Source of the DNA: an uncultured Oscillospiraceae bacterium
GTDB lineage: Bacteria; Bacillota; Clostridia; Oscillospirales; Oscillospiraceae
NCBI GenBank assembly: GCA_944385545.1
Contig: CALWXQ010000004.1
Span: forward strand, 1 to 56,367
DNA length: 56,367 bases
Reading direction: 5' to 3'
Both the position numbers and the translations under genes were made by a program. Below, piece by piece: positions 3,234 through 46,736 of the stretch. The stretch's first letter is position 1; every line of letters begins with the position of its first letter. Below the pieces are notes generated by a model. It worked only from the letters and a program-made list of their open reading frames with translations. It made no database searches and was not told where the DNA came from.

Positions 3234-3354
3234 TAACGAACCGCCGAATCCATCGGCCGCGGCTTATGCCGAAACGGCTTGCGCCACTCCGGCGGCTGCA
3301 AAAAGCGGGAAATCCATACAGGATGCCTCTGCCGGTTTTATCAGTGGTTCTTCA
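3234..3354. repeat. palindromic repeat, copy E (121 bp, in pheB leader)
   Basis: Degenerate member of the family also found at 25875, 33138, 33481 and 46657. The left terminal repeat (3234-3255, ending GAATCCATCG) matches the family length of 22 bp and starts with TA; the right end is the inverse of AAGAACCACTGATAAAACCG. The central hairpin GGAAATCC-ATACA-GGATGCC replaces ATAC/GTAT of copy A by ATCC/GGAT, a compensatory change. It lies between the pheB promoter and its ribosome binding site. Confidence 0.75.
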
Positions 3355-3405
3355 AAAAAAGACGAAAACGTTCCCGCCTGAATAACATTTGTCTACACAT
3401 TATGC

Positions 3406-3433
3406 ATTGTACCACATTTTTCGAAAATTGCAA
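3406..3433 (-). promoter_or_regulatory. putative pheB promoter
   Basis: Minus strand TTGCAA (3428-3433), 16-bp spacer, TACAAT (3406-3411), about 190 bp upstream of the pheB start. The same segment is the upstream region of the plus-strand permease gene at 3465. Confidence 0.55.
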
Positions 3434-3464
3434 CCCCTATCCTGTAATCGAACGGAGGTTTTCT

Positions 3465-4517
3465 ATGCAGACCGGCCCCAAGCGCGTCCTTTCGTACCTG
3501 GCCCTGTTTTTGGGGGTGTGGCTGGGACTGCGGTATGTTCTGCCGCTGTTTTCCCCCTTCCTGCTGGGGCTGGGACTGGCCCTGGCGGCGGAGCCTATGG
3601 TTTCGTTCCTGAATCGCCGGGCCCGGGTGCCCCGTGGGGTCAGCGCGGGCATCGGGGTGAGTATGGCCTTCTGCTTCCTGGCCATGGTGCTGCTGCTGAT
3701 CTGCGCCTTCTTGGTGCGGCAGCTGCGGATGCTGGCGGGGATCCTGCCGGATCTGGAGGGGGCTGCGGCCTCCGGAACCCGGCTGCTCCACAGCTGGCTG
3801 CTGGAGTTGGCGGGCCGCATGCCCCAGAGCGTTCAGCCGGTGCTGCGGGAGAATCTGTCCGCCCTGTTCTCCGACGGAGCGGCCCTGGTGGATGGGCTGC
3901 TGAGCTGGCTGGTGAGCCTGGCGGGGAATCTGCTCAGCCACATCCCGGACAGCGCCCTGGGCCTGGGCACCGCGGTGGTCTCCGGCTTCATGATCTCGGT
4001 GAAGCTGCCTCTGATCCGGCAATGGCTCCGGCGGCGGCTGTCCGGCCAGCGGCTTAAAACCCTGCTGGCCGCGGGGAAACGGATGCGCCGGGCGGTCATC
4101 GGATGGCTGATGGCCCAGTGCAAGCTCATGGGGGTGACCTTCGCCATTTTGCTAGGAGGGCTTTGGCTGCTGAAGATCCCCTATGCCCCGGCCTGGGCGG
4201 CGGGGATCAGCCTGGTGGATGTGCTGCCGGTGCTGGGGACGGGGACGGTGCTGCTGCCCTGGTCGCTCATCTGCCTGCTCCAAGGGGAGGGGGTAAAGGC
4301 CCTGGGCCTGGCCGGGGTCTATGTGATCATCACCCTGACCCGGTCGATGCTGGAGCCCAGGCTTCTGGGGCGGCATCTGGGCCTGGATCCCCTGGTGACG
4401 CTGATGGCCATGTACCTGGGCTATCAGCTCTGGGGGGTAGGGGGGATGCTCCTGGCTCCGGTGCTGGCGGTGGCGGCGGCGCAGCTGGCGCCGGAGGCCG
4501 GCAGGGAGGCCTCTTGA
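3465..4517 (+). CDS. AI-2E/YtvI-family membrane protein
   Basis: Polytopic membrane protein of the AI-2E transporter family (PF01594). In spore formers the YtvI branch is a sporulation integral membrane protein. The 350-residue product has two N-terminal membrane segments (about residues 8-40), a third near 62-82, a soluble central part, then the family's C-terminal block (ILLGGLWLLKIPYAPAWAAG, LVDVLPVLGTG, and LEPRLLGRHLGLDPL) with four or five further segments. The start at 3465 follows CGGAGG by 7 nt; upstream in-frame ATGs (from 3279) have no such site and run through the repeat. It stands alone. Substrate unknown; a sporulation role is inferred from family and from sigK and SpoVB-like genes in this window. 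Confidence 0.85.
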   Translation: MQTGPKRVLSYLALFLGVWLGLRYVLPLFSPFLLGLGLALAAEPMVSFLNRRARVPRGVSAGIGVSMAFCFLAMVLLLICAFLVRQLRMLAGILPDLEGAAASGTRLLHSWLLELAGRMPQSVQPVLRENLSALFSDGAALVDGLLSWLVSLAGNLLSHIPDSALGLGTAVVSGFMISVKLPLIRQWLRRRLSGQRLKTLLAAGKRMRRAVIGWLMAQCKLMGVTFAILLGGLWLLKIPYAPAWAAGISLVDVLPVLGTGTVLLPWSLICLLQGEGVKALGLAGVYVIITLTRSMLEPRLLGRHLGLDPLVTLMAMYLGYQLWGVGGMLLAPVLAVAAAQLAPEAGREAS

Positions 4518-4622
4518 AGGCCGCTCTGTCCCCGATTCGGCAAACAGCGTCTGTTTTCACAGAAAAAGGCCGGAATACACCGGAACCGGCCTCGCATTTC
4601 CTACAAAAATCCATACCGCCTA

Positions 4623-4652
4623 TTGTACATTCCGTTCCCTTTATGCTATAAT
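4623..4652 (+). promoter_or_regulatory. promoter of the recJ operon
   Basis: TTGTAC (4623-4628), 18-bp spacer, TATAAT (4647-4652), 35 bp upstream of the recJ start. A weak GGCCGG/CCGGCC hairpin at 4566-4592 precedes it and may end the ytvI-like transcript. Confidence 0.75.
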
Positions 4653-4686
4653 AAAAAGAAAATGTAATTGCTGGGTGAGTGTAAAG

Positions 4687-6741
4687 GTGAAATACGGTAT
4701 ATGGAATGTGCGCCGTCCGGAGCCGGGGGCCGTCAATGCCCTGGCCGTAGACGGCTATTCCCCGCTGACGGCAATGGTGCTGGCAGCCCGGGGAATCCGG
4801 GACAGTGGGCAGGCCCACAAATACTTAGACTGCGGCGCGCCCCTGGCCGAGCCGCTGTTGATGACGGATATGGACAAGGCGGTTCGGCGGATAAGGCTGG
4901 CCCTGGAGCGGGGGGAGCGGATCGCGGTTTACGGCGATTATGACGTCGATGGCATCACCGCCACCTGTCTGCTGACGGACTTTCTGCGCCGCCGGGGCGG
5001 GGACTGCGTCTGCTACATCCCCGGCCGGCTGGAGGAGGGCTACGGCCTGAACCCCATGGCCCTGGGCCATCTCCATGACCAGGGCGTGAATCTCATCGTC
5101 ACCGTGGACTGCGGCATCACCGCCATTGCCGAGGCGAGGCTGTGCCGGGAGCTGGGAATGGAGCTGGTGGTCACCGACCACCATGAGTGCAAGGAACGCC
5201 TGCCTGAGGCGGTGGCGGTGGTGGATCCTCACCGGCCTGACGGGGGATATCCCCATAAGAATCTGTCCGGCGTGGGGGTGGCCTTTAAGCTGGCCGCCGC
5301 CCTTTGCGGCGATCAGCAGACGGTGCTGGAGAGCTATGCCGATCTGGTCTGCCTGGGCACCGTCGCCGACGTCATGCCCCTGCTGGGGGAGAACCGCACC
5401 TTTGTGGCCAAGGGCCTTGCCGCCCTGTCCCATACCCGCCGCCCCGGACTGGCGGCGCTGATGGCGGAAAGCGGCTGCGATATCGCCGGTCTGAGCGTCG
5501 GCACCATTGGCTATACGCTGGCCCCCCGGATCAACGCCGCCGGGCGCATGGGCCAGATCGATCTGGCTGTGGAGCTGTTCCTTACCGAGGATCCCCGGCG
5601 GGCGGCGGAGGTGGCCCGGCAGCTGTGCGAGTTGAACCGGCTGCGCCAAAGCGTGGAGTCGGAGATCTACCAGCAGGCGGTGGACATGCTCCCCCATGGC
5701 CAGCCTCCGGAGGCCATCGTCCTGGCCGGGGAGACCTGGCATCAGGGCGTGGTTGGCATCGTCGCCAGCCGCATCGCTGAGGAATACGCCTGCCCCACCT
5801 TCCTGATCTGCCTGGACGGCGCCCACGGCAAGGCCAGCTCCCGCAGCTACGGAGGCTTTAACCTGTTTTCTTCCCTGACCGCTCTGTCGCCGCTGCTGGA
5901 AAGCTACGGCGGCCACGAGCTGGCGGCGGGGTTTACCATTACCCGGGCCAACATCCCGGAATTCCGCCGCCGGGTCTGCGCTCTGGCCGCGGACTACTAC
6001 GAGGACGGCGCTCCCCGCACCGCTTTGGACGTGGACTGCGCCGTCCAGCCGGAGCTGCTGACCATTCCCAATATCGACGCGCTGTCGGCCCTGGAGCCTT
6101 GCGGCAACGGCTGCCCCAAGCCGTTGCTGATGCTGAAGGATCTGACCATTGAGCGCATTACCATGGTAGGGGGCGGACGGCATATGCGCCTGCGGCTGCG
6201 GAGCGGACGGCATACCCTGGGAGCCATCTGCTTCTGCGCCACGGCGGAGTCCTTCTTCATTCGTCAGGGGGATCAGGTGGACGTGGCCTTTACCCCCCAG
6301 GTCAACGAGTTCCGGGGAGAACGCAGCGTCCAGCTGAACATTGTGGACATCCGGCCCAGCTGCCACGCTGCGTGCTCGCCGGGAATCTCCGACTACCGGG
6401 CGCTGAAGGAAGACCGGCTCACCCCCGCCGACGCGGCCCGGCTGCTGCCGGACAGGCAGACCCTGGCGCTGGTGTGGCGGTATCTGGCCTCGGAGACCGC
6501 GCCGACGGCGCCGGAATCCCCTCTGTGTCTGTGCCGCAAGATCGTGCGCCGGACAGAAAAGCCCCTGAGCCTGGGCCAGCTGCTGGCCTGCCTGGATATT
6601 TTTCAGGATGTGGGCCTGGTTCAGATCCAGCGGCAGCATAAATGCATCCGAATCTGCCTGTCCCCCGGAGAGGGGAAGGCGGATCTGAACCGGAGCCGTA
6701 CCATGCAGCGGCTGCTGCATGGACTGGAAGGCTCCCGGTGA
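4687..6741 (+). CDS. recJ: single-stranded-DNA-specific exonuclease RecJ
   Basis: 5'-3' exonuclease acting on single-stranded DNA in recombination and repair. DHH-family motifs are visible: DYDVDGITATCLL near residue 90 and VTDHHE near 165, the metal-binding DHH, followed by a DHHA1 domain with GRMGQIDLAVELF and the glycine-rich SYGGHELAAGF near 410, then an OB-fold C-terminal part. The 684-residue length exceeds the bacterial core (about 570) as in other Clostridia. I prefer the GTG at 4687 because translation then begins with MKYGIWN, like other RecJ N-termini; GTG at 4675 would add four residues. It leads a plus-strand group with relA, dtd, an MBL hydrolase and hemZ. Confidence 0.93.
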   Translation: MKYGIWNVRRPEPGAVNALAVDGYSPLTAMVLAARGIRDSGQAHKYLDCGAPLAEPLLMTDMDKAVRRIRLALERGERIAVYGDYDVDGITATCLLTDFLRRRGGDCVCYIPGRLEEGYGLNPMALGHLHDQGVNLIVTVDCGITAIAEARLCRELGMELVVTDHHECKERLPEAVAVVDPHRPDGGYPHKNLSGVGVAFKLAAALCGDQQTVLESYADLVCLGTVADVMPLLGENRTFVAKGLAALSHTRRPGLAALMAESGCDIAGLSVGTIGYTLAPRINAAGRMGQIDLAVELFLTEDPRRAAEVARQLCELNRLRQSVESEIYQQAVDMLPHGQPPEAIVLAGETWHQGVVGIVASRIAEEYACPTFLICLDGAHGKASSRSYGGFNLFSSLTALSPLLESYGGHELAAGFTITRANIPEFRRRVCALAADYYEDGAPRTALDVDCAVQPELLTIPNIDALSALEPCGNGCPKPLLMLKDLTIERITMVGGGRHMRLRLRSGRHTLGAICFCATAESFFIRQGDQVDVAFTPQVNEFRGERSVQLNIVDIRPSCHAACSPGISDYRALKEDRLTPADAARLLPDRQTLALVWRYLASETAPTAPESPLCLCRKIVRRTEKPLSLGQLLACLDIFQDVGLVQIQRQHKCIRICLSPGEGKADLNRSRTMQRLLHGLEGSR

Positions 6742-6790
6742 CGTTTTTCAATGCCACGATATGCCCCTCCAGGAAAGAGAGCTGAATCAC

Positions 6791-8986
6791 ATGGAAACTT
6801 TTGAAGAACACTACGCATCCATGCGGCAGACCATCCAAAAGCATATGCCCAACGCCGACATGGCTCTGATCGACCGGGCGGTGGAGTATGCCAATGTCAA
6901 GCATGAATTCCAGAAGCGCAAGGACGGCTCCCCCTATATCATCCACCCTCTGGCGGTGGCGGAGGTTGTGGCGGAGATGGGCCTGGATCAGGACGCCATT
7001 CTGGGCGCTCTGCTCCACGACTGCATCGAAGATACCGACGCCTCCCACGAGGAAATCGAGAAGCTGTTCGGCGGCACGGTGGCGCAGCTGGTGGAAGGGG
7101 TCACCAAGCTGACCCGGGCCAACTTCTCCACCTCCGAGCAGGCCCAGATGGAGAACCTGCGGAAAATGTTCATGGCCATGTCCAAGGACATCCGGGTGGT
7201 GCTGATCAAGATCGCCGACCGGCTGCATAACATGCGCACCATGCAGTACCAGACGCCCGCCAAGCAGATCAGCAAATGCCAGGAGACCATGGACATCTAC
7301 GCCCCCCTGGCCCACCGCCTGGGTATGCAGAAAATCAAATGGGAGCTGGAAGACCTGTCCATGCAGTACCTGGCCCCGGGTGAGTACGATGAGATCATGA
7401 CCTACCTGCGGGCCCATAAGGAGCAGGACGAGACCTTCATGCGCACCATCCAGGGCAAGATCACCCAGCGGCTGACCAATATGGGCATCCGCAACAATAC
7501 CTACGGGCGGATCAAGCATGTCTATTCCATTTACCGCAAGATGCAGGCCCAGGGCAAGACCATTGACGAGCTGTATGACATCTACGCCTTCCGGGTGATC
7601 GTGGACTCCATTCCCGACTGCTACAACGTTCTGGGCCATGTCCACGACCTGTTCAACCTGGTGCCGGGCCGGTTCAAGGACTATATCTCCACCCCCAAGC
7701 CCAACATGTACCAGTCTCTGCACACCACCGTCATCGGCTCCCAGGGCATCCCCTTCGAGGTGCAGATCCGAACCTGGGAAATGCACGAGACGGCGGAATA
7801 CGGCATCGCCGCCCACTGGAAGTATAAGCAAGGCTCCGGCGGCGGCAGCGAGAAGGACTTCGAGTGGGTGCGGCGGCTGCTGGAGACGCAGCAGGATTCC
7901 GATACGGAAGAATTCGTCCAGTCCATGAAGATCGATATGTTCGACGACGAGGTGTTCGTCTACACACCCAAGGGTCGGATCGTCTCCCTGCCGGCGGACT
8001 CCACCCCCATCGATTTCGCCTATGCCATCCACTCCGGGGTGGGCAACGCCATGATCGGCGCCAAGATCAACAACCGCATCGCCAACATCGACGCCCAGCT
8101 GCACAACGGCGATATCGTGGAAATCCTCACCTCCAAGTCCGCCAAAGGCCCCAGCCGGGACTGGCTGAGCATCTGCAAGTCCAACCAGGCCCGGACAAAG
8201 ATCAAGCAGTGGTTCAAGAAGGAGAAGCGGGAGGAGAACATCATCCACGGCAAGGCCGCCTTCGAAGCGGAGATGAAGCGGGTGGGCCTGCCCATGTCCG
8301 CCCTTTCCGATCCGGAGCTGGAAGCCCAGGTGTTGAAGAAGCTGTCCTCCTTCGATACCTGGGACGATATGTACGCCGCCATCGGCTACGGCGGACTCAC
8401 CGCCTCCAAGGCGGTGGGCCGGGTTCGGGACGACATCGCCCGGGCGGTGAAGGCCCAGGCTACGGACAAGCTCAACCAGAACCCCCTGCGAATGAAGCCG
8501 GACAGCGAAGCGGTTATACGCAACCGCCACGCCGTCAACGGCGTCATTGTAGAGGACATTGATTCGTGCATGATCAAGTTTGCCAAATGCTGCACTCCGG
8601 TGCCCGGGGACGCCATTGTGGGCTTCATCACCAAGGGCTTCGGCGTCAGCGTCCATCGGGCGGACTGCCCCAACGCCCAGAGCCGGAACGATCCCCGGCA
8701 AGCCGCCCGGTGGGTACGGGTGCGCTGGGCTGCCCAGGATGAGCAGCCCTTCGATACCACCCTGGAGCTGGACTGCATCACCAGAGACGGTCTGCTGCTG
8801 GATGTGGCTACGGTGATGACCACCGCCCGGGTTCGGGTGAAGGAGCTGTACGGCAAGGATCTGCCCGGCGGGCGGAGTACCTTCACCGTCCGCTTCCAGG
8901 TTCGGGACGTGGCGGAGCTGGAATCCATCCGGAAAAAGCTGCTGAATGTCCGGGATGTGGTCGGCTCCCGGCGGGGCCAGAATTGA
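6791..8986 (+). CDS. relA: bifunctional (p)ppGpp synthetase/hydrolase
   Basis: RelA/SpoT homologue (Rel) that makes and degrades (p)ppGpp in the stringent response. Domain order over 731 residues: HD hydrolase domain with LLHDCIEDT near 75 and RLHNMRTMQYQ near 145; synthetase domain with YGRIKHVYSIYRKM near 240 and RFKDYISTPKPNMYQSLHTT near 300; TGS domain with VFVYTPKGRIVSLP near 388; zinc-finger-like KCCTPVPGD near 600; C-terminal ACT domain. Because the HD motif is intact, hydrolysis should be possible. The ATG at 6791 gives the normal N-terminus; its ribosome site (AGGAAAGAGAG) is weak and distant. The gene starts 49 bp after recJ. Confidence 0.97.
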   Translation: METFEEHYASMRQTIQKHMPNADMALIDRAVEYANVKHEFQKRKDGSPYIIHPLAVAEVVAEMGLDQDAILGALLHDCIEDTDASHEEIEKLFGGTVAQLVEGVTKLTRANFSTSEQAQMENLRKMFMAMSKDIRVVLIKIADRLHNMRTMQYQTPAKQISKCQETMDIYAPLAHRLGMQKIKWELEDLSMQYLAPGEYDEIMTYLRAHKEQDETFMRTIQGKITQRLTNMGIRNNTYGRIKHVYSIYRKMQAQGKTIDELYDIYAFRVIVDSIPDCYNVLGHVHDLFNLVPGRFKDYISTPKPNMYQSLHTTVIGSQGIPFEVQIRTWEMHETAEYGIAAHWKYKQGSGGGSEKDFEWVRRLLETQQDSDTEEFVQSMKIDMFDDEVFVYTPKGRIVSLPADSTPIDFAYAIHSGVGNAMIGAKINNRIANIDAQLHNGDIVEILTSKSAKGPSRDWLSICKSNQARTKIKQWFKKEKREENIIHGKAAFEAEMKRVGLPMSALSDPELEAQVLKKLSSFDTWDDMYAAIGYGGLTASKAVGRVRDDIARAVKAQATDKLNQNPLRMKPDSEAVIRNRHAVNGVIVEDIDSCMIKFAKCCTPVPGDAIVGFITKGFGVSVHRADCPNAQSRNDPRQAARWVRVRWAAQDEQPFDTTLELDCITRDGLLLDVATVMTTARVRVKELYGKDLPGGRSTFTVRFQVRDVAELESIRKKLLNVRDVVGSRRGQN

Positions 8987-8996
8987 GAGGGTTTGC

Positions 8997-9464
8997 ATGC
9001 GAGCTGTATTGACAAGAGTTTCCCGCGCTTCTGTGACCATCGACGGGGAAGTGGTGGGCAAGATCGGCAGGGGCTTTCTCATTCTTTTGGGGGTTGGCCC
9101 CCGGGACACCTCCCGGGAGTGCCAATATCTGGCGGAGAAAGCCCTTGGCCTTCGGATCTTCACCGATGAAAACGACAAAATGAACCTGGGGCTGGAGGCG
9201 GTGCAGGGGGAAGTGCTGGTGGTCAGCCAGTTCACCCTTTACGGCAACTGCCGCAAGGGCCGCCGTCCCAGCTTCACCGATGCCGCCCCGCCGGAGCTGG
9301 GGGAGCGGCTGTATGAAGAATTTCTGGAGCACTGCGCCCGGCTGGGATATCCGCCGCAGCACGGCCGGTTCGGCGCCTCCATGGAGGTTGCCTCGGTGAA
9401 CGACGGGCCGGTGACGCTGCTGCTGGACACCGACCAGCTCATGGACGCCCCCCGGCGGGGCTGA
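8997..9464 (+). CDS. dtd: D-aminoacyl-tRNA deacylase
   Basis: Hydrolyses D-amino acids from mischarged tRNA. The 155-residue length is typical, with MRAVLTRVSRASVTIDGE at the start, the catalytic SQFTLYG motif near residue 79 and the Gly-cisPro motif NDGPVTLLLD near 137. The start at 8997 follows GAGAGGG; it begins 10 bp after the relA stop, consistent with an operon. Confidence 0.97.
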   Translation: MRAVLTRVSRASVTIDGEVVGKIGRGFLILLGVGPRDTSRECQYLAEKALGLRIFTDENDKMNLGLEAVQGEVLVVSQFTLYGNCRKGRRPSFTDAAPPELGERLYEEFLEHCARLGYPPQHGRFGASMEVASVNDGPVTLLLDTDQLMDAPRRG

Positions 9465-9476
9465 GGAGGAAGAATT

Positions 9477-10067: not shown

Positions 10068-10072
10068 CGACT

Positions 10073-25846: not shown

Positions 25847-25875
25847 TTGCATACCAGGGGGAAATATGTTAAACT
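25847..25875 (+). promoter_or_regulatory. putative promoter of the glutamate-synthase-like gene
   Basis: TTGCAT (25847-25852), 17-bp spacer, TAAACT (25870-25875). The predicted start point falls inside the left end of palindromic repeat copy A, so the message would begin with the repeat. Confidence 0.6.
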
Positions 25876-26041
25876 AAGGAAGCTCTGAATAAATCGTCTT
25901 CGGCTGAATGCCGGATCTTTTGCCCCATCCGTGCAGTTTAAAAAGTGGGAAATACATACAGTATTCCTCCACTTTTTAAACTTTCGGCTGAGTCAAAATC
26001 TCTCGGCATCAGCTCTTGCCGATTTAATCAGAGCTTCCCTA
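25875..26041. repeat. palindromic repeat, copy A (167 bp)
   Basis: 22-bp terminal inverted repeats (25875-25896 and 26020-26041), both starting at TA, differ at two positions. The centre is a 14-bp perfect hairpin arm (AGTTTAAAAAGTGG at 25935, inverse at 25969-25982) topped by GGAAATAC-ATACA-GTATTCC. An intermediate helix pairs GCTGAATGCCG with CGGCATCAGC. The whole unit can fold into one long hairpin. It has the same length as copy B and is nearly identical to it. No open reading frame of note inside. Confidence 0.92.
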
Positions 26042-26099
26042 AACAAAACCGCATCTATAACCTGTAGAAACTGGTAAAAAAACACAAGGAGGAAATGCA

Positions 26100-27335
26100 A
26101 TGGCGCTTCACGTTATGGACGAGGCCAACCGCTGCCTGGGCTGTAAGGTTCCCCAGTGCCAGAAGGGCTGCCCCATCAATACCCCCATCCCTGAGGTGAT
26201 CCGGCTGCTGAAGGACAATCAGCTGGACAAAGCCGGATGGCTTTTGTTTGAGAACAATCCTCTGACCACGGTTTGCAGCCTGATCTGCAACCATGAAAAG
26301 CAGTGTGAAGGCCATTGCGTCCTGGGCAGGAAGGGGGCGCCGGTGCATTTTTCCACCATTGAGCACTACATTTCCAGCGCCTACGCGCCTAAAATGGTGA
26401 AAGGCCCGCACCCCTCCAACGGCATCAAGGCCGCCATTATCGGCTCCGGCCCCGCGGGCATCACCATTGCCATTTTGCTGGCCCGGTACGGCTACCAGGT
26501 GACTATTTTCGAAAGCAACGATCAGATCGGCGGCGTGCTGCGCTACGGCATTCCGGACTTCCGCCTGCCCAAGTCCGTGCTGGACGATATCCAGTACCGG
26601 CATCTGGAACTGAAGGGCATCAAGATCCGGCCCAATACCCGTATCGGCGGGGCCATCGGCATTGACGACCTGTTCCGGGACGGATACAAGGCCATTTTCA
26701 TCGGCACCGGAGTATGGAAGCCCAACGCCCTGCACATCAAAGGGGAAACCTTCGGCAACGTGCACTTCGCCATCAACTATCTGCATAACCCGGACGTATA
26801 CCGCCTGGGCAAACGGGTAATCGTCATCGGCGCGGGGAACGCTGCCATGGATGTGGCCCGCACCGCCCTGCGCAAAGGCACAGAAGAACTGACCTGTGTG
26901 TCCCTGTCAAAGAAGGTGGCCGCCAGCCAGTATGAGTTCAGCTATGCCCAGCTGGAAGGAGTGGAGTTCCTGTACAATAAAAAACCGGTGGAAATCGTGG
27001 ATGCCGGTATCATCCTGCGGGATGTGGAGGAGGCGGAAGACGGTACCCTGACGGAGCTGCCGGGGACGGACCGGCTCTATCCGGCGGACAGCATCCTGAT
27101 CTCCATCAGCCAAGGCCCTCAGAATACCATCGTCAATACCACCACCGGACTGACCGCCAATGACCGGGGGCTGCTGGTGGCGGACGAACGGGGCAGAACC
27201 AGTCGCCCGGGGATCTTCGCCTCCGGGGATGTGGTCAACGGCGCCCGAACGGTGGTGGAGGCTGTGGCCCACAGCAAGGTGGTGGCGGAGGCCATGCACG
27301 AATACATCCAAAGCCTTCCAAAGGACGGCAGATAA
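26100..27335 (+). CDS. NADPH-dependent glutamate-synthase-small-subunit-like oxidoreductase
   Basis: Flavin and iron-sulfur oxidoreductase of the GltD family (411 residues). N-terminal cysteines in RCLGCKVPQCQKGCP (Cys12, 15, 20, 24) fit a 4Fe-4S cluster; IIGSGPAGITIAILLARYG near residue 112 is the FAD loop and VIVIGAGNAAMDVARTA near 241 the NADPH loop; GIFASGDVVNGARTVVEAV near 373 is the second flavin motif. No large glutamate synthase subunit is adjacent, so it may work alone as a sulfide- or NfnB-like electron carrier rather than in glutamate synthesis. CAAGGAGG lies 7 nt before the ATG. Its 5' leader contains palindromic repeat A. Confidence 0.9.
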   Translation: MALHVMDEANRCLGCKVPQCQKGCPINTPIPEVIRLLKDNQLDKAGWLLFENNPLTTVCSLICNHEKQCEGHCVLGRKGAPVHFSTIEHYISSAYAPKMVKGPHPSNGIKAAIIGSGPAGITIAILLARYGYQVTIFESNDQIGGVLRYGIPDFRLPKSVLDDIQYRHLELKGIKIRPNTRIGGAIGIDDLFRDGYKAIFIGTGVWKPNALHIKGETFGNVHFAINYLHNPDVYRLGKRVIVIGAGNAAMDVARTALRKGTEELTCVSLSKKVAASQYEFSYAQLEGVEFLYNKKPVEIVDAGIILRDVEEAEDGTLTELPGTDRLYPADSILISISQGPQNTIVNTTTGLTANDRGLLVADERGRTSRPGIFASGDVVNGARTVVEAVAHSKVVAEAMHEYIQSLPKDGR

Positions 27336-33061: not shown

Positions 33062-33137
33062 AAAGCGTTCTCCTTGGGTAACGTATTTCGGGGCTGCCGT
33101 CCGCCTGCTCAGAAGGGCCGGACGCTCAGAAGCTCCC

Positions 33138-33304
33138 TAGGGAATCTCTGAATAAATCGTCTTTGGCTGAATGCCGGATCTTTTGCCCCATCCGTGCAGT
33201 TCAAAAAGCAGGAAATACATACAGTATTCCTCCACTTTTTGAACTTTCGGCTGTGCCAAAATCTCTCGGCATCAGCTCTTGCCGATTTAATCAGAGCTTC
33301 CCTA
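33138..33304. repeat. palindromic repeat, copy B (167 bp, in phoP leader)
   Basis: Same length as copy A. TIRs at 33138-33159 and 33283-33304 start with TA on both ends. Central hairpin arms AGTTCAAAAAG (33198-33208) and CTTTTTGAACT (33235-33245) differ from copy A by a T-A to C-G exchange on both strands, so pairing is kept. It begins 5 nt after the phoP -10 box (minus strand). Confidence 0.92.
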
Positions 33305-33309
33305 GCTTG

Positions 33310-33480: not shown

Positions 33481-33620
33481 TAAGAAACCGCTGAATCAAT
33501 CGTCTTCCGCTAAATGCTGGAGCGGTTGCCCCATCTGCGCAGGATTTCTCCGCTTTTTTCTGTTCATTTGGGGCAAAACCTCTCGGCACCGGCTCTTGCC
33601 CATAGTATCAGAGGTTCTCA
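33481..33620. repeat. palindromic repeat, copy C (140 bp, diverged)
   Basis: Left TIR at 33481-33502 (TAAGAAACCGCTGAATCAAT...), right end TATCAGAGGTTCTCA at 33606-33620. It shares TTGCCCCATC-GCGCAGG with copies A and B, but the central hairpin is eroded. Lies between a putative promoter and the GHMP/nucleotidyltransferase gene. Confidence 0.75.
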
Positions 33621-39492: not shown

Positions 39493-39502
39493 GTTCGGGG
39501 TG

Positions 39503-39557: not shown

Positions 39558-39606
39558 ATCCTTGTGAAAAAGGCTGTGACAGCCATTGACAGAAAGGTAG
39601 AACCAC

Positions 39607-41352
39607 ATGGATATTTTTGATTTGCTGACAATGATCGGCGGATTGTGCCTGTTCCTGTTCGGTATGAATCTGATGGGCGAGGCTCTGGAACGCCGGGCGG
39701 GGAACAGCCTGCGGGCCTTGCTGGGCAAGCTCACCGGCAACCGGATGCTGGGCTTCCTGACGGGCCTGGCGGTGACCGCGGTGATTCAGTCCTCCTCCGC
39801 TACCACGGTGATGGTGGTAGGCTTCGTCAACTCCGGCCTTCTGACCCTGGGTCAGGCCATCAACGTGATTATGGGCGCCAACGTAGGCACCACCGTCACT
39901 GCCTGGATTCTGTCCCTGGGGGGCATTGACGGAGACAGCCTGTTCCTCCAGCTCCTGAAACCCACCTCCTTTACCCCTATCCTGGCTCTGATCGGCATTG
40001 TGGACTACATGTTCCTGAAGGACAGCAAGAAGAAGGACACCGGCCTGATTCTGCTGGGCTTTGCTACCTTGATGTTCGGCATGGACACCATGTCCGGCGC
40101 GGTGAAGGGCCTGAAGGACGTGCCCCAGTTCCAGCAGATGTTCCTGCTGTTTACCAACCCGGTGCTGGGCGTGCTGGCAGGCGCGGTGCTGACCGCCATC
40201 ATCCAGTCCTCCTCCGCCTCGGTGGGCATTTTGCAGGCTCTGTCCGTTACCGGTCAGGTCACCTACGCCGCCGCCATTCCCATCATCATGGGCCAGAACA
40301 TCGGTACCTGCGTCACCGCTATGCTGGCCTCCGTGGGCACCACCAAGAACGCCAAGCGCGCCGCTGTGGTGCATCTGATGTTCAACATCCTGGGCACCCT
40401 GATCTGTCTGCCTCTGTTCATGCTGGGGCGGTGGATCTTTGACCCGGCGATCCTCTACGAAAGCGCCAACTATGTGGGCATCTCCATCTGCCACACCGCC
40501 TTCAACTGCTTCTGCACCGCCCTGCTGCTGCCTTCCGGCAGTCTGCTGGAAAAGCTGGTGTGCAAGCTGGTTCCCGACGCCAAGGAGCCGGAGACTGTGG
40601 CGGAGCTGGATCAGCGCCTGCTGGGCACCCCATCCCTGGCGCTGGAGCGCTGCCGCAGCGTCACCTGGGAAATGGCGGAGGCTGCCGCCGAGGCCTTCCG
40701 GGGCGGGGCGGAGTCGGTGCTGAGCTACAGCCCTGAGCTGGTGGCCCGGGTGCGGGAATGCGAGAACAAGACCGACCACTACGAGGATATCCTGGGTACT
40801 TATTTGGTCAAGCTCAGCGCCTTGCAGATCAGCGAGTCGGACAGCGCCGAGGCGGCGATGATCCTGAAGGCCCTGAACGATTTCGAGCGGGTGGCCGACC
40901 ACGCCCTGAACCTGGTGGAGGCCGGGGAGGAGCTGCATGACAAGCACCTGACCCTTTCCGACGCGGCCTGCCACGAGCTGGCGGTGCTGAACCGGGCGGT
41001 CAATGACATTGTGACCTTGTCCTTCCAGGCCTTCCGGGACAAGGATCTGGAGAAGGCGTATCAGGTGGAGCCTCTGGAGCAGGTCATTGACGATCTGAAG
41101 GAGAAGCTCCGGGTGCACCACATCCTGCGGCTGCAGCAGGGCAGCTGCAGCATCGAGAGCGGCTTTGTCTGGTCGGATCTGCTCACCGCCCTGGAGCGGG
41201 TGGGGGATCACTGCTCCAACATCGCCGGCTGTGTGGTGGATATGGCCCACCATGATATGAACACCCACGAGGCCCTCCGCTCCGCCCGGGTGGAAAACGA
41301 GAACTTCGGCGAGCAGTACAAGCAATTCGCCAGGAAATACAGCCTGAAGTAA
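39607..41352 (+). CDS. Na+/phosphate cotransporter with C-terminal PhoU-like domain
   Basis: NptA/PNaS-family phosphate transporter, 581 residues. Two inverted repeats carry the family QSS motifs: TAVIQSSSATTVMVVGFVNS near residue 58 and TAIIQSSSASVGILQALS near 197, within about eight membrane segments. After about residue 330 a soluble helical PhoU-like domain follows (RVRECENKTDHYEDILGTYL near 381, NDFERVADHALNLVEAG near 422, ALERVGDHCSNIAGCVVDMA near 525). AAGGTAG precedes the start. The upstream PhoP box indicates induction under phosphate limitation through the PhoP/PhoR pair at 30.7-33.1 kb. Confidence 0.93.
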   Translation: MDIFDLLTMIGGLCLFLFGMNLMGEALERRAGNSLRALLGKLTGNRMLGFLTGLAVTAVIQSSSATTVMVVGFVNSGLLTLGQAINVIMGANVGTTVTAWILSLGGIDGDSLFLQLLKPTSFTPILALIGIVDYMFLKDSKKKDTGLILLGFATLMFGMDTMSGAVKGLKDVPQFQQMFLLFTNPVLGVLAGAVLTAIIQSSSASVGILQALSVTGQVTYAAAIPIIMGQNIGTCVTAMLASVGTTKNAKRAAVVHLMFNILGTLICLPLFMLGRWIFDPAILYESANYVGISICHTAFNCFCTALLLPSGSLLEKLVCKLVPDAKEPETVAELDQRLLGTPSLALERCRSVTWEMAEAAAEAFRGGAESVLSYSPELVARVRECENKTDHYEDILGTYLVKLSALQISESDSAEAAMILKALNDFERVADHALNLVEAGEELHDKHLTLSDAACHELAVLNRAVNDIVTLSFQAFRDKDLEKAYQVEPLEQVIDDLKEKLRVHHILRLQQGSCSIESGFVWSDLLTALERVGDHCSNIAGCVVDMAHHDMNTHEALRSARVENENFGEQYKQFARKYSLK

Positions 41353-41358
41353 AACGAT

Positions 41359-41387
41359 CCGCGCCGCGGCGAAAAGCCGCGGCGCGG
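41359..41387. terminator. GC-rich hairpin between convergent nptA-like and dapH genes
   Basis: Perfect 12-bp stem CCGCGCCGCGGC and its inverse with a GAAAA loop; only a short U stretch on the minus strand (ATCGTTTT). Probably a shared weak terminator. Confidence 0.6.
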
Positions 41388-41397
41388 AAATGCGTTG

Positions 41398-42090
41398 TTA
41401 CAGGGTTCGCAAAGCGTCTACCAGGGCGGTCTTGCCTGCGGTTTTCGCGTCCTTTTCCTTAATCACCCGGGCAGGGCAGCCGGCTACCACGGTGTTGGGG
41501 GCCACGTCGCTCACCACCACGGCGCCCGCCGCCACCACGGCGCCCCGGCCGACCCGGCAGCCCTCGATGACCACGGCGTTGGCGCCGATGAGCACATCGT
41601 CCTCCACCACCACAGGCAGGGCGGAGGCGGGTTCCACCACACCGGCCAGCACCGCCCCGGCGCCTACGTGGCAGTTGTTGCCTACGGTGGCCCGTCCGCC
41701 CAGCACGGCTCCCATGTCGATCATGGTGCCGTCGCCTACCACCGCGCCGATGTTCAAAATGGCGCCCATCATGATTACCGCGTTTTTGCCGATGCGCACC
41801 TGCTCCCGGATTACGGCGCCGGGCTCGATCCGGGCTGGGATGTCCTTCAGATCCAGAAGGGGGATGGCGGAGTTGCGGCAATTGTTTTCGATCTCCAGGT
41901 GTGCGAAGGTGTTGCTCTGCAGCACCGGGGCTACGTCCTTCCAGTCGCCGAAGACGATTTTGCAGCCCTGGCCGCAGGGGAATTCCCGGCAATTGGGGAA
42001 GGATACCGGGGTCTGCTCCCAGACGTAGACCTTTACTGGGGTTTTCTTTTCTGAGGTGCGGATATATTCAATGATCTGCTGGGCATCCAT
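41398..42090 (-). CDS. dapH: tetrahydrodipicolinate N-acetyltransferase
   Basis: Acetylates tetrahydrodipicolinate in the acetylase branch of DAP/lysine synthesis. The 230-residue protein has the DapH N-terminal domain ([20 protein letters not shown]) followed by a left-handed beta helix of hexapeptide repeats ([54 protein letters not shown]). GGGAGGAG precedes the start. It is divergent from an M20 deacetylase gene that would supply the next-but-one step of the same branch. Confidence 0.94.
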
Positions 42091-42122
42091 ATGGGGTTCT
42101 CCTCCCTGTCTTATGATGGACT

Positions 42123-42151
42123 ATCGTACCATTTTTCCCCCGGAAATACAA
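42123..42151 (-). promoter_or_regulatory. dapH promoter
   Basis: Minus strand TTGTAT (42146-42151), 17-bp spacer, TACGAT (42123-42128). Its -35 box is 8 bp from that of the divergent promoter. No lysine riboswitch fits in the 33-nt leader. Confidence 0.7.
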
Positions 42152-42159
42152 GGGCGAAA

Positions 42160-42188
42160 TTGACAGGCCGGGGGCTTTCGGATATAAT
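42160..42188 (+). promoter_or_regulatory. promoter of the M20 deacetylase gene
   Basis: TTGACA (42160-42165), 17-bp spacer, TATAAT (42183-42188): full consensus. Confidence 0.9.
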
Positions 42189-42221
42189 TGCACCATCCTA
42201 TCCCTACAGGAGGAGAACGCT

Positions 42222-43304
42222 ATGCAGATCCTGGAAGACCGCCGCCGCCTGCACCGAATCCCGGAGCTGGATCGTGCCCTGCCCAAAACCATGGCCTATC
42301 TGGAAACGGCCTTGGAGGGGCTGGGGTGTCAGGTGTTTTCACCGATGCCGGGCGCGCTGTGCGCCTGGTTTGACTTCGGCCGGGAGAGGGCCTTGGCCTT
42401 CCGGGCAGACGCCGACGCCCTGCCCATCACCGAGAACACCGGCGCCGCCTATGCCTCCACCCACCCCGGGCGGATGCACGCCTGCGGCCATGACGGCCAC
42501 ATGGCGATCCTGCTGGAGCTGGCCCGGCGGCTGAGCCGGGGGCAGCGCCCGGGATACAATGTGCTGCTGGTGTTCCAGCCGGCGGAGGAGACCACCGGCG
42601 GGGCCAGGGATCTGTGCGCCGGGGGGATCCTCCGGGAGAAGGGGGTGGAGGCCATCTTCGGCCTGCACCTGTGGCCGGGGCTTCCTGCCGGGGAGATTTT
42701 CAGCCGTCCCGGAGCCATGATGGCCCGCTCCGGAGAGGTCACTGTGGATATTTTCGGCCGCTCCGCGCACATCGCCAAGGCGGAGCAGGGGCTGGACGCT
42801 CTGGCCGCCGGGGTGGAGATGTACCGGCTGACGGCCCAATTGGAGCAAAGCGTTTCCGGTTCCCGGCTGCTGAAATTTGGCCTGCTGCAAAGCGGCAGCG
42901 TCCGCAACGCCGTCGCCGCCCGCGCCCATCTGGAAGGCTCCCTGCGGGCCTATGACGATGCCGTCTTTCACCGGCTGCGCCGGGGGCTGGAGGACATCGG
43001 TCGCCGGGTGGAAGCCAGCACCGGCTGCGCCGTGAAAATAACGGTCAGCGAAGGATATCCCCCGGTGTGCAACCCGGGAGATTTGCTGGAGCGGGCGGCG
43101 GCTGTCGCCCGGATCCGGCATTTGCCCACGCCCTCCATGACCACGGAGGATTTTTCCTGGTATCAGCGGCAGATCCCGGGGCTGTTCTGCTTCCTGGGCC
43201 TTGGGGATGTTCCGGCCCTTCATGCCGATACCTTTGACTTTGACGACCGGCTCCTGGAAAAGGGCGCTGACTTTTTTGAGGCCCTGGCCCGTGGCCTTCC
43301 CTAA
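42222..43304 (+). CDS. M20-family amidohydrolase, probable N-acetyl-diaminopimelate deacetylase
   Basis: Zinc-dependent M20D peptidase-family hydrolase, 360 residues. Metal motifs: FRADADALPI near residue 66, MHACGHDGHMA near 86 and QPAEETTGGARDLC near 125; dimerisation domain with SAHIAKAEQGLDAL near 185. Such enzymes remove acetyl groups from N-acetyl-DAP or split IAA- and hippurate-type amides. Divergent linkage with dapH makes N-acetyl-L,L-diaminopimelate the likely substrate. AGGAGGAG lies 6 nt before the ATG. Confidence 0.86.
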   Translation: MQILEDRRRLHRIPELDRALPKTMAYLETALEGLGCQVFSPMPGALCAWFDFGRERALAFRADADALPITENTGAAYASTHPGRMHACGHDGHMAILLELARRLSRGQRPGYNVLLVFQPAEETTGGARDLCAGGILREKGVEAIFGLHLWPGLPAGEIFSRPGAMMARSGEVTVDIFGRSAHIAKAEQGLDALAAGVEMYRLTAQLEQSVSGSRLLKFGLLQSGSVRNAVAARAHLEGSLRAYDDAVFHRLRRGLEDIGRRVEASTGCAVKITVSEGYPPVCNPGDLLERAAAVARIRHLPTPSMTTEDFSWYQRQIPGLFCFLGLGDVPALHADTFDFDDRLLEKGADFFEALARGLP

Positions 43305-43313
43305 GCGCCGGGC

Positions 43314-44915
43314 TTACCGCCGGTAGAGACAGACCCCTTCTTTATAGGTTGCCAGCACCGGAATGTCCTTGACGGTCTTGGGATCCGCCGCCAGGGGATC
43401 CTTCTCCAGCACCACCAGATCCGCCAGCTTTCCCGGGGCCAGAACGCCTTTCCGGTCTTCCTCTCCATAGGCGAAGGCGGCATTGCCGGTGACGGCTTGC
43501 AGAGCCTGGTAAACCCCCACCCGCTCCTCCGGGGCGAGGATATCGCCGCCCCGGGTGCGCCGGTTCACCGCGCACCAGACGCTGTGGAGCATGTCTGGCC
43601 TGGTCACCGGGGTGTCCTGGTGGAGGGTGCAGCACAGCCCCCGGCAAAGGGCGCTACCCACCGGGGAGATCCGGCTGCCCCGCTCCCGGCCCAGGTTTTT
43701 CCGGTGTACGTCCCCCCAGTACCAAATGTGGCCCACAAAGAAGCTGGGGATCATGGCAAGCTCCGCCATCTGATCCAGCTGCTCCCGGCGCAGGATCTGA
43801 CAGTGGATCATCACCGGCCGGAGCAAGGGCCGATCCCGGCTCTCCAGCCAGGCGCGGCGGTACTGGGTCAGGAATTGATCCGCGGCGGCGTCGCCGTTGC
43901 AGTGGGCCAGCAGCTGCCGACGGTGGGCCAGGGCCTGGGCGCAGACGGCGTACACCCTTTCGTCGCTGAGGCTGGCCGCGCCCCGGGAGTCGCTGCCCTG
44001 GTAAGGCCGGCTGAGCCATGCGGTACGGCCCTGGGGAGATCCGTCCAGAATCAGCTTATAGCCCCCCAGGCGGAAGCGGTGCCGGTAAGGCCCGGCGTAA
44101 GGCGCCAGTTTTTGAAACCAGTCCTCCGCCTGTCCCTCCGCCGCTGCCAGATAAGACACCAGATCCAGCTTCAGACCGCCGCCCTGGGCATACCGTGCCA
44201 GCAGGGCGGCGGTTTGCAAATTCGTGGCCCCATCCTGGGCGGTGGTGATGCCATAGCTGAGGTAGTCCTGCTGGGCGTCGGCCAGCTGCCGCTCCATATC
44301 GGTGGGCAGACGGCGGAACACCTCCGTCAGCGCCGGGACACAGGCCCCCGGCTCTTCCAGATAGCCGCTGAGGGAGCCGTCCTCCCGGCGGCCCAGACGG
44401 CCTCCGGCGGGATCCGGGGTATTGGCGTCCCAGCCCAGCAGCTCCAGCAGCGCCGTATTGGCTACCCCCATGTGGGAGGAGGCGTGGAGCAGGAGCATGG
44501 GAATGCGGCGGCTGACGCCGTCCAGCAGCTCCCGATTCGGGTGGGTCTGTTGGGGAAGAAAGTTGTGGTCATAATTGACCCCCAGCACCGCCCCCTCCGG
44601 CCCGGGGGGCGCGGCGTTGAGGTGGCGGCGCAGAGCGCCGGCAATCTGGGTGAAGTCGGTACACTCCGACAGATCCACTGCCGAACGGTACTGGGCGGCC
44701 ATGGACAGATGGCTGTGGGCGTCCAGAAAGGCGGGCAGCAGGGCATGACCTTTCAGATCCACCCGCCGGGGCGACGGCCCCGCCAGGGCTTCCGCCTGGG
44801 CAAGATCGCCGGCATAGACGATCCGGCCGTCCTGCTCCACCAGGGCCTGAACCCGATGGCCGGGGGCGGTCATGGGGATGATGGGGCCGCCGGAAAAAAT
44901 GGTGATCCGGGACAT
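43314..44915 (-). CDS. YtcJ-like amidohydrolase
   Basis: Amidohydrolase-superfamily protein of 533 residues, YtcJ (amidohydrolase 3) group. Seen: FSGGPIIPMTAPG at the start, metal motif LLPAFLDAHSHLSMAA near residue 60, GGYKLILDGSPQGRTAWLSR near 283, LLAHCNGDAAADQFL near 340, and the C-terminal aspartate motif LHQDTPVTRPDML near 435, so the active-site residues look complete. AAAGGAGG precedes the start at 44915. It converges on the deacetylase gene with 9 bp between them. Substrate not known. Confidence 0.88.
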   Translation of the reverse strand: MSRITIFSGGPIIPMTAPGHRVQALVEQDGRIVYAGDLAQAEALAGPSPRRVDLKGHALLPAFLDAHSHLSMAAQYRSAVDLSECTDFTQIAGALRRHLNAAPPGPEGAVLGVNYDHNFLPQQTHPNRELLDGVSRRIPMLLLHASSHMGVANTALLELLGWDANTPDPAGGRLGRREDGSLSGYLEEPGACVPALTEVFRRLPTDMERQLADAQQDYLSYGITTAQDGATNLQTAALLARYAQGGGLKLDLVSYLAAAEGQAEDWFQKLAPYAGPYRHRFRLGGYKLILDGSPQGRTAWLSRPYQGSDSRGAASLSDERVYAVCAQALAHRRQLLAHCNGDAAADQFLTQYRRAWLESRDRPLLRPVMIHCQILRREQLDQMAELAMIPSFFVGHIWYWGDVHRKNLGRERGSRISPVGSALCRGLCCTLHQDTPVTRPDMLHSVWCAVNRRTRGGDILAPEERVGVYQALQAVTGNAAFAYGEEDRKGVLAPGKLADLVVLEKDPLAADPKTVKDIPVLATYKEGVCLYRR

Positions 44916-45014
44916 GGAAGATCCTCCTTTTGCGCAAAACCGGGCCGCTTGACCCGTTGTCTTAGGGATTAGTATGCCCGGATCCGTCGCCGGGAACCCG
45001 GCAAAATGCCGCCC

Positions 45015-45043
45015 TTGACATTGCCGGAAGGAAGAAGTATCAT
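45015..45043 (+). promoter_or_regulatory. promoter of the serine hydrolase gene
   Basis: TTGACA (45015-45020), 17-bp spacer, TATCAT (45038-45043), giving a leader of about 170 nt before the start codon at 45220. Confidence 0.8.
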
Positions 45044-45049
45044 TTTTCT

Positions 45050-45219
45050 ATATGCGGATGGACGCGGCAGGAATACAGCTGCCAGGCTGCAATCGGCTTA
45101 CCCCCTCTGCCGCGCCTCGTGACATTCCCCGAGGGGCGCGCCAGAGTCCGGTTTCCGCGAGGCGGCGCGGGGCGTTCATAGGCATGAGAAATCCGGACAG
45201 ACATCAGGAGGAGATCGGC
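45050..45219 (+). promoter_or_regulatory. long structured 5' leader of unknown function
   Basis: Three helices are evident: GCGGCAG (45064) with CTGCCGC (45107-45113); CGCGCC...CTCG with CGAG...GGCGCG (about 45111-45142); and GTCCGG (45146) with CCGGAC (45193-45198), the last ending about 8 nt before the ribosome site. The first two overlap by 3 nt and may exclude each other. It matches no riboswitch class I recognise. Confidence 0.4.
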
Positions 45220-46641
45220 ATGGATCAGAATCGTTTGGACAAATATTTGCAGGAACAGTTTGACAAGCGGGGGCTTCCCGGCATGGCGGTGTGCATTCGG
45301 GGGCCGGAGGGCGTGGTATATGAGGGAAGCTTTGGCTGCCGCAGCGTTCAGCCCCGGCTTCCGGTAACGGGAGATACCATTTTCGGCATCGCATCCATGA
45401 GCAAGTCCATCACCGCCCTGGCTTGCTGCATTCTGGAGGCGGAGGGGAAGATGTCTCTGGAAGATCCGGTGGCGACCTATTTCCCGGAGCTGCACATCCC
45501 CGGCACCCCGGATCAGTGGCTCACGGTGGAGACGCTGGCCACCCATCGTTCCGGGATCCCTCCCATGGAACCGCTGGAATGGTCCATCGCCATGAACAGC
45601 GCCCAGCGGGACAGCGACTGGTATCGCCAAATGCGGCGTACCGCCCCCAACAAAATGGATCAAATCCAGCAGATCGTGGACTATATCTCCGCCGGGGACT
45701 ATACGCCTCTGGGCGCTCCTGGGGAGATGATGAGCTACAGCAACGAGGGCTACGCCCTGCTGTCCTACATTGTGGATCAGGCTGCCGGGATCTGTTTGGA
45801 GCGGTTCCTGCAGGAGCGGATCTTTGCCCCTTTGGGCATGGATCGCACGGTGCTGGATGTGGACGCGAGCCAGGCCCGGGCCATTTCCGGCGGGGACATC
45901 ACCAGCCTGTTTGAGCGCGACCAGGCGGGGCAGCTGGTGTGGGACGACGACTGGTCTATTCTGCCGCCCTTCCGGGGCTGCGGCTGCGTCAAGTCCACTG
46001 CCCGGGACATTACCAAGTATTACCAGATGCTGGCCCAGGGAGGCGTCTGGGAGGGCAAGCAGGTGATTCCCGCGCAGGCGGTGGAGCGGCTGGCGGGTCG
46101 GGGCTTCCCGGTGCGTGTCAAGCCGGTGTACTGCCTGGGTCTGGAGAAGCGGCTGCTGGCGGGGAAGGTGCTGTGCCAGCATTCCGGCGGCCTTCACGGG
46201 GTGTCCACCATCGGCGGTTTCCTGGAGGGAGGCTTCGCCGTGGCGGCGCTGTGCAACGAAGGGGACGTGGATATGACGGACTTTTTGTGGATCTGTCTGA
46301 ACCACATTCTGGGCCTGCCTCTGGATACCCGGCATCCCTGGGCCGTGCCCAACGGCCGGCGCTTTGACTGCCCTGAGATCCTTTGCGGCCACTACCTGTG
46401 CCGGGAGGGGGTGCCTGCCCACTGTGTGGTCTACCAGGAGGATGGCTGCCTGAAGGCGGACTATCAGGGCAGGAAGACCCTGCTGCAATGGTGCGGCAAA
46501 AACGTCTTTGCCGCTATGGCGGAAAACGATCCCCGGGAACGGGTGAGTACCCTGCAATTCTATGCCCGGGAGGGCAGGCCCTGGTGCGTCCGGTGCGGCA
46601 GCCGGGTCTACCAGATGATCCGGGAGCAGGCTCCGGAATAA
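45220..46641 (+). CDS. serine hydrolase of the class C beta-lactamase/esterase family
   Basis: 473-residue protein with the penicillin-binding-protein-like fold of class C beta-lactamases and related esterases/D-aminopeptidases. Catalytic Ser59-Met-Ser-Lys62 lies in FGIASMSKSIT, the tyrosine motif is YSNEGY near residue 169, and the third motif is HSGGLHG near 325. A C-terminal extra domain of about 110 residues (from RHPWAVPNGR) may hold a beta-barrel. No signal peptide is present at the chosen start (45220, AGGAGG 6 nt upstream), so it is likely cytoplasmic and not a secreted resistance enzyme. Substrate unknown. Confidence 0.9.
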   Translation: MDQNRLDKYLQEQFDKRGLPGMAVCIRGPEGVVYEGSFGCRSVQPRLPVTGDTIFGIASMSKSITALACCILEAEGKMSLEDPVATYFPELHIPGTPDQWLTVETLATHRSGIPPMEPLEWSIAMNSAQRDSDWYRQMRRTAPNKMDQIQQIVDYISAGDYTPLGAPGEMMSYSNEGYALLSYIVDQAAGICLERFLQERIFAPLGMDRTVLDVDASQARAISGGDITSLFERDQAGQLVWDDDWSILPPFRGCGCVKSTARDITKYYQMLAQGGVWEGKQVIPAQAVERLAGRGFPVRVKPVYCLGLEKRLLAGKVLCQHSGGLHGVSTIGGFLEGGFAVAALCNEGDVDMTDFLWICLNHILGLPLDTRHPWAVPNGRRFDCPEILCGHYLCREGVPAHCVVYQEDGCLKADYQGRKTLLQWCGKNVFAAMAENDPRERVSTLQFYAREGRPWCVRCGSRVYQMIREQAPE

Positions 46642-46647
46642 CGAAAA

Positions 46648-46736
46648 CCGGAAAACCAGGGAACCTCTGATGAAATCGTCCGAAGCGGAGCTCCGGAACG
46701 TTTGCCGATTTCATCAGAGGTTCCCTGGTTTTCCGG
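46648..46736. repeat. palindromic repeat, copy D, inside a long perfect hairpin
   Basis: Two perfectly complementary 31-bp arms (46648-46678 and 46706-46736) enclose a 27-nt loop. Positions 46657-46678 and 46706-46727 are the 22-bp TIRs of the repeat family (GAACCTCTGATGAAATCG); the interior found in A and B is gone. The outer 9 bp (CCGGAAAAC) extend the arms. Six T residues follow on the plus strand, so it also acts as terminator of the serine hydrolase gene. Confidence 0.88.

Follow-up and report, generated by a model that had tools for sequence, protein, structure and literature searches.

A palindromic miniature element in genomes of a gut-bacterial genus is very probably derived from an IS5-family insertion sequence

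The stretch of DNA analyzed here (the window) comprises 56,367 nucleotides of contig C4 from an uncultured Oscillospiraceae bacterium, whose own genome (G000) is a draft of 2,028,983 bases (2.03 Mb) in 106 contigs with a completeness of 85%. Five copies of a short palindromic element, a miniature inverted-repeat transposable element (MITE), lie in the window. We found that the element is very probably an IS5-type MITE, that is, a non-coding palindrome derived from an IS5-family insertion sequence (IS), and that it has spread through genomes of a gut-bacterial genus, most likely by means of an IS5-type element traced in relatives.

Results

Copies of the element in the window

Direct reading of the window placed the five copies, designated A to E, and their associated features as follows.

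3238-3354, plus strand: element E, a degraded relic (more so than C), with the best match to the left two thirds of the element
25874-25877, unstranded: left target duplication CTAA of element A (sequence reading)
25878-26038, plus strand: element A, a MITE of full length (161 bp) that lies upstream of the gene at 26100
25935-25982, unstranded: internal perfect hairpin of element A, arms AGTTTAAAAAGTGG/CCACTTTTTAAACT, covarying across the family
26039-26042, unstranded: right target duplication CTAA of element A (sequence reading)
33137-33140, unstranded: left target duplication CTAG of element B
33141-33301, plus strand: element B, full-length MITE, 95% identical to A
33302-33305, unstranded: right target duplication CTAG of element B
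33483-33620, plus strand: element C, a diverged whole-element relic with internal deletions and without target duplication
46659-46725, plus strand: element D, a 67-bp short form of two terminal inverted repeats (TIRs) and a small loop, within the palindrome 46644-46740

With the nucleotide sequence of A as the reference, B, C, E and D scored 290, 115, 75 and 44, respectively, and the highest scores among 300 dinucleotide shuffles of each were 52, 47, 41 and 33. Each copy thus outscored all of its shuffles, and the five copies of the original prediction, which had been made from the letters of the window alone, are real. The predicted near-identity of A and B was also borne out, whereas their length was revised from 167 to 161 bp, with ends GGAA...TTCC. 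C and E are diverged, as had been proposed; both are relics without a recognisable target duplication.

Element D is flanked by inverted rather than direct repeats, and the resulting arms of 35 nt are 97% complementary and end in a run of six T. Because of these features, D, a MITE remnant, seems from the sequence to be part of a hairpin terminator belonging to the gene that ends at 46641. This hairpin was missed by a terminator scan, since its loop of 27 exceeds the limit of 8 used in the scan. The same kind of search revealed one weak site in A, no more than in shuffles, and Rfam gave no match at any of the elements. Elsewhere in the window, a purine riboswitch (Rfam RF00167) was located at 1613-1713 on the minus strand.

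Ends and target duplications

Alignment of the own copies with their flanks revealed that the element ends in GGAA...TTCC and is flanked by 4-bp direct repeats of the consensus YTAR. Across this alignment, the base preceding GGAA co-varies with the right flank, and the duplication is therefore 4 bp long. This A/G base had been taken as position 1 of the TIR and is instead part of the duplication. Likewise, the bare TA borders described earlier proved to be the centre of a 4-bp YTAR duplication, which is perfect in both A (CTAA/CTAA) and B (CTAG/CTAG).

The first count set consisted of 225 loci, which contained 116 distinct TIR pairs spanning exactly 161 bp; a perfect 4-bp repeat flanked 83 of these. 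When all TIR pairs up to 3.5 kb were taken, 562 were obtained, many of which join different copies, and 127 had a perfect 4-bp repeat. These 127 duplications were CTAA/TTAG (67), CAAG/CTTG (15), TTAA (13), CTAG (12), CTTA/TAAG (5), ATAG (5), ATAA (4) and others (6). Two repeat-flanked pairs were longer than 200 bp, namely L010, which represents two neighbouring MITEs, and L209. Among distinct copies of 154-170 bp, the repeat was perfect in 105 of 155. A central TA is not obligatory, as CAAG, CTTA and CTCA also occur.

In the accessible part of one report, the recorded IS5 targets are CTAG (15), CTAA (3), TTAG (3) and CAAG, CTTA and CTTT (1 each) (PMC5493358), and the available text of another gives YTAR as the IS5 target motif (PMC10359306). 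The 4-bp YTAR duplication found here is that of an IS5-type element.

Two other arrangements were observed near the MITEs. At L014 (123-451), two MITEs stand head to tail, separated by one CTAG, as if one had inserted at the edge of the other. Additionally, a second small repeat with ends like GGAATGCGGAGCTTTCATAGTAAA was present at L041 (about 84-125 and 5265-5440), at L025 (about 4315) and in the right flank of L034; in places it has apparently recombined with the MITE or inserted beside it.

Copy number and distribution

A BLAST search of the own genome with element A returned 69 rows. Of these, 26 are on the reverse strand and are due to the palindromy of the element, one is a piece of 47 bp, and the others correspond to at least 42 near-full-length places with 83-100% identity. 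The count of 42 is a lower bound, as 40 of 118 candidate regions were scored. The TIR pattern with up to one mismatch matched 92 times, and the reversed-pattern control gave 0 matches. The proposed search for genome-wide copies was therefore positive, whereas these counts fall short of the hundreds of copies that had been extrapolated for the genome. A 161-bp element with TIRs at this many places has the general properties of a MITE, and 161 bp is too short to hold a transposase gene.

Matches were found in 16 of 40 genomes, comprising the own genome and 15 of the 24 other genomes of its genus, four of which showed just one or two weak matches each; none of the 15 searched genomes from other genera of the order matched. 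A pattern scan of named genomes yielded 95 stretches, including Candidatus Faecousia species, metagenome-assembled genomes of Clostridia and the isolate Pseudoflavonifractor sp. MSJ-30. No match was obtained in plasmids or phages by blastn with the MITE DNA, or in viral contigs with one exact 23-base pattern of its right end. Within our literature searches, we found no report of this element.

Empty sites in related genomes

Thirty-two own sites were joined in silico at a single 4-bp target; 28 of them were searched in genomes G007, G013 and G015, and all 32 were compared with 38 loci. A junction-spanning match was found at 11 of the 32 joined sites and none at the other 21. Nine of the 11 empty sites were ungapped close to the junction, and L012 and L026 were gapped there. 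The single target was identical at four sites (L018, L019, L027 and L035), one base different at four (L009, L013, L023 at 133 and L034) and not conserved at L023 at 8219. Empty sites thus exist as had been anticipated, with the single target being YTAR rather than TA.

Three of the sites were the clearest. Contig C51 ends in a fragment of an IS1182-type transposase that holds a MITE in G000 and is uninterrupted in G013 (96.7% over 150 bp). One MITE-occupied repeat gave 13 junction-spanning matches of up to 96.7%; matches inside repeats are paralogous empty sites. A coding site was also found, where the sequence is uninterrupted in G015 at 87% and the open frame of G000 is split by the MITE. 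The G015 frame has 702 residues with RVWGYSARFVD near its end, which we take to be glycyl-radical-enzyme-like, and the two G000 frames have 346 and 423 residues.

Copy A is absent in G007 and G015, where the same downstream gene, encoding an oxidoreductase with Fer4_20 and Pyr_redox_2 domains, and a similar promoter-like stretch are kept. The single target at these empty sites is CTAT or ATAG, not CTAA. The regions upstream of this gene in G013 and G008 align poorly.

Two of the occupied sites lie in further multi-copy hairpin repeats, which are interrupted by the MITE in G000 (L018, about 3879, and L027, about 11685). Both repeats were seen in G007 and G013, and that of L018 also in G015.

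An IS5-family insertion sequence with nearly the same ends

Transposase searches covered PF01609 (DDE_Tnp_1; 31 genomes), PF05598 (DUF772; 31), PF13751 (DDE_Tnp_1_6; 31) and PF13586 (DDE_Tnp_1_2; 17). As candidate parents, none of the loci of these four families ended in this TIR, several being cut by contig ends with their own ends unseen. Locus L089 was likewise rejected as a parent; it contains a MITE because one lies there within an IS1182-type transposase fragment. In the own genome, contig C49 (L076, 1-80) starts with a GACA tandem repeat near an IS1182-type transposase fragment.

The PF05598 search of 136 genomes of the genus gave matches in 31 genomes at 44 places, 30 of which were read as loci, and locus L298 of the relative G120 carries the TIR ends. 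The likely parent IS (about 1.2 kb, L298 730-1961) has the TIRs GGAACCTCTGAATAAATAG on the left and GGAACCTCTGATTAA on the right, the right one containing an 11-bp tandem repeat, and on the left it agrees with the degenerate TIR at 18 of 19 positions. The MITE TIR is GGAA[G/C]CTCTGAATAAATCG and the corresponding IS TIR is ...AATAAATAG. The full-length element that was to be looked for was thus found in a relative and not in the own assembly, and its TIRs are nearly the same rather than the same.

The transposase of L298 is intact, with 327 residues on the minus strand (880-1863). It matches NF033581 (IS5 family) with 314.6 bits at a cut-off of 140, carries PF01609 and PF05598, and is 49.5% identical over 96% of the query to an E. 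coli protein annotated 'IS5-like element IS5 family transposase'; that E. coli IS begins with GGAAGGTGCGAACAAG beside CTAG. By sequence, no solved structure was matched. A protein search with this transposase gave matches at E <=0.001 in 25 of 136 genomes, many of them only distant.

Pieces of the IS adjoining this TIR were found in G122, G002, G001, G125 and G041. In G001, two distant IS parts are adjacent, which represents an internally deleted derivative. A further IS copy is present in a 386-kb plasmid record of Subdoligranulum variabile (L378, 1417-2488); about 145 bp are missing inside it, it is flanked by a perfect ATAA repeat, and its protein is 85.6% identical over 89% of the query. 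The IS therefore extends beyond a single genus. Contig C13 (36,561 bp) of the own genome breaks off 75 bp inside the IS, with 86.7% identity to the IS 5' end and CTAA before it; this genome thus carries at least a part of the IS. It may be complete in the own genome, or multi-copy and so break the assembly.

Construction of the MITE

Seven MITEs were compared with the IS, with the TIR excluded and 200 mononucleotide shuffles for each. The left part of the MITE aligned over about 120 bp, in diverged form, with that end of the IS which lies downstream of its transposase gene. None of the 200 shuffles reached this score for A, L002 and L003, one did for L007 and L008, and five did for L005; for L006, 18 of 200 did, and this similarity is not convincing. 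The MITE also matches its own reverse complement at 70-76%. Both arms may go back to one and the same IS end, placed in inverted order, rather than being the product of a simple internal deletion.

The transposase of the parent IS would, judging from the sequences, act in trans. It would cut at the GGAA.../...TTCC ends, and the cut ends would be joined to a staggered cut at YTAR, leaving the 4-bp direct repeat. We infer this trans-mobilisation, present-day activity and the order of events that formed the MITE.

Sites at which copies are found

Gene contexts were taken from rough gene calls of our own, and the tests were not planned beforehand. A stop codon lies within the flanking 4 bp in 10 of 49 own copies. 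A restricted set of 30 own copies with a perfect CTAA, TTAG, TTAA or CTAG repeat was compared with 500 unoccupied sites of the same loci. Two of the 30 copies lay in coding sequence, compared with 47% of the control sites. Among non-coding copies, 9 of 28 were on a stop codon, compared with 10.2% of 264 control sites (p 0.0014). As TAA or TAG is part of the duplication, an insertion at a stop codon keeps the stop of the gene.

In co-directional contexts, the sense orientation was found in 18 of 22 own copies (17 of 22 with the first gene calls) and in 28 of 45 others, together 46 of 67 (p 0.003). The other 88 of the 155 copies fall outside this count, lying between opposed genes, inside genes or without called neighbours.

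Fold and covariation

Three of the 155 copies with low similarity to A were dropped, and the other 152 formed 43 clusters at 90% identity. Alignment A1 holds 39 representatives, the 4 lowest-scoring ones being left out. RNAalifold on A1 revealed 42 pairs, 24 of which were changed on both sides. Paired cells amounted to 94.6%, compared with 84.9% in shuffles, and the covariation score was 0.331, compared with 0.145 in shuffles and at most 0.078 in slid controls. With a FastTree tree and parsimony on A1, 59 branch events, spread over 21 pairs, altered both sides yet kept the pair (0-3 in slid controls), and 71 single changes broke a pair (140-174 in slid controls); the structure itself comes from A1 and is thereby favoured over its slid versions. 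The MITE subfamilies of different species have diverged in sequence, with pairing kept through dozens of double changes, and the fold is unusually well preserved.

The minus strand was the more stable in 37 of 39 representatives (mean -81.1 compared with -67.2 kcal/mol), a difference to which one position, A-C on the plus strand in 34 of the 39, contributes. Among the 37 pairs shared by the consensus of both strands, G-U and A-C mismatches were nearly equal in number (29 and 34, respectively), and over all pairs of either consensus they numbered 86 and 111. The signal therefore does not clearly belong to a single RNA strand.

Three explanations of this preservation were weighed. The one that fares best, plausible if somewhat short of probable, is that covariation arises without selection by template-switch correction between the palindrome arms at the DNA level. 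Such correction of quasi-palindromes is established, and the near-equal mismatch types on both strands and the match of the element to its own reverse complement agree with it. Some consensus stretches nevertheless stay unpaired where correction would be expected to close them, which is not decisive; single sequences can pair there in a shifted register.

Alternatively, and more tentatively, the folded hairpin and not only the ends may be under selection, with the fold serving transposition or transcripts and the surviving copies lying at stops restored by YTAR. Folding may be required for transposition, for example into a cruciform or into a single-stranded hairpin on the lagging strand, or it may have a role in transcripts.

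We regard it as unlikely that the element persists because it has been co-opted as a structured RNA or DNA element (a leader, a 3' hairpin or a protein site) whose fold is selected. The high proportion of paired cells, the covariation score, the 59 double compensations and the sense orientation in 46 of 67 contexts would suit such a role. However, the G-U and A-C counts in the common pairs (29 and 34) favour no single RNA strand, even though the minus strand is the stabler in most representatives; pairs are broken by 71 single changes in the reconstruction; the search for the orientation bias was post hoc, and the bias is not significant in the other genomes alone (28 of 45, p 0.14); and the copies lie at many unrelated sites.

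Discussion

The many copies, the target duplications, the empty sites and the likely parent IS give good support to the mobile non-autonomous MITE that had been suspected, and point very probably to an IS5-type derivative. Several observations weigh against this assignment. The single target was altered or gapped at 7 of the 11 empty sites, and 50 of the 155 copies lack a perfect 4-bp repeat. The flanks of the L298 IS, TTAG and CTAG, form an imperfect repeat, the sole intact IS found belongs to another species (G120), and a protein search of the own assembly gave 0 matches to the transposase of this IS. Beyond the TIR, the IS 5' end was no better than shuffles for most of the seven MITEs (best L007, 4 of 200); without a clear similarity to this end, the right half of the MITE is not accounted for by simple internal deletion in this IS. 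Finally, the transposase families searched do not cover every type.

The other classes fare far worse. The IS630/Tc1-mariner class with a 2-bp TA duplication, which the original prediction had favoured, has the TA at the edges of A and B in its favour and is nonetheless extremely improbable, no IS630 model having been used in the searches, since 105 of 155 copies have a repeat of 4 bp, duplications without a central TA occur (CAAG, CTTA and CTCA), and the transposase of the IS whose TIRs are nearly the same belongs to the IS5 family and carries PF05598 and PF01609. Equally improbable is a REPIN or repetitive extragenic palindromic (REP) element moved by a RAYT (Y1 transposase): the element is palindromic, short, mostly intergenic and, among the genomes searched, found only within the genus, but its TIRs, direct duplications and empty sites point to the product of a DDE transposase, RAYT genes having been outside the searches. 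Genomes with REPIN/RAYT elements carry a gene for the Y1 transposase (RAYT), and these elements are not known to make a target duplication.

The IS5-type MITE described here was compared with known systems. IS5 of E. coli has the TIRs GGAAGGTGCGAACAAG/GGAAGGTGCGAATAAG, with CTAG beside the left end and the other side at the end of the record. The MITE TIR begins with GGAAG and matches the right IS5 end read in L379 at 12 of 16 positions. In contrast to the MITE, IS5 is autonomous, differs in the TIR interior and belongs to a different host phylum; its commonest recorded target is CTAG, whereas that of the MITE is CTAA/TTAG.

As far as the accessible text of the source goes, the closest published case is MITEPsy1 of Pseudomonas syringae with its proposed parent ISPsy2 of the IS5 family (PMC3189936). 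It is likewise a short MITE linked to an IS5-family IS, and its TIR GGAAGGTCTGAAAAAGCC resembles GGAAGCTCTGAATAAATC. The part of the source available gives a 4-nt duplication of CTAG or YTAA, a parent of 1194 nt and transposition that was experimentally trapped. By the same text, MITEPsy1 has 100 nt and six copies in strain 1448A, whereas the present MITE has 161 bp, at least 42 places in one genome, a host genus in Clostridia and a covarying hairpin. In the portion of a further source at hand, the MITEs of Porphyromonas gingivalis and the Neisseria ATR are also non-autonomous, with TIRs that match those of IS5-family ISs; in contrast, their TIRs start with GAGAC or ACGT, and the duplications of the ISPg elements are 2-9 bp (PMC4596501).

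The present analysis identifies a mobile repeat dispersed over the genomes of a gut genus that is mostly uncultured, and corrects its class. With the MITE linked to a specific IS5-family element, its activity becomes open to testing. The MITE explains a split coding frame and may also explain some of the contig breaks in these draft genomes. Additionally, the covarying hairpin offers a natural data set on selection versus DNA-level arm correction in MITE palindromes.

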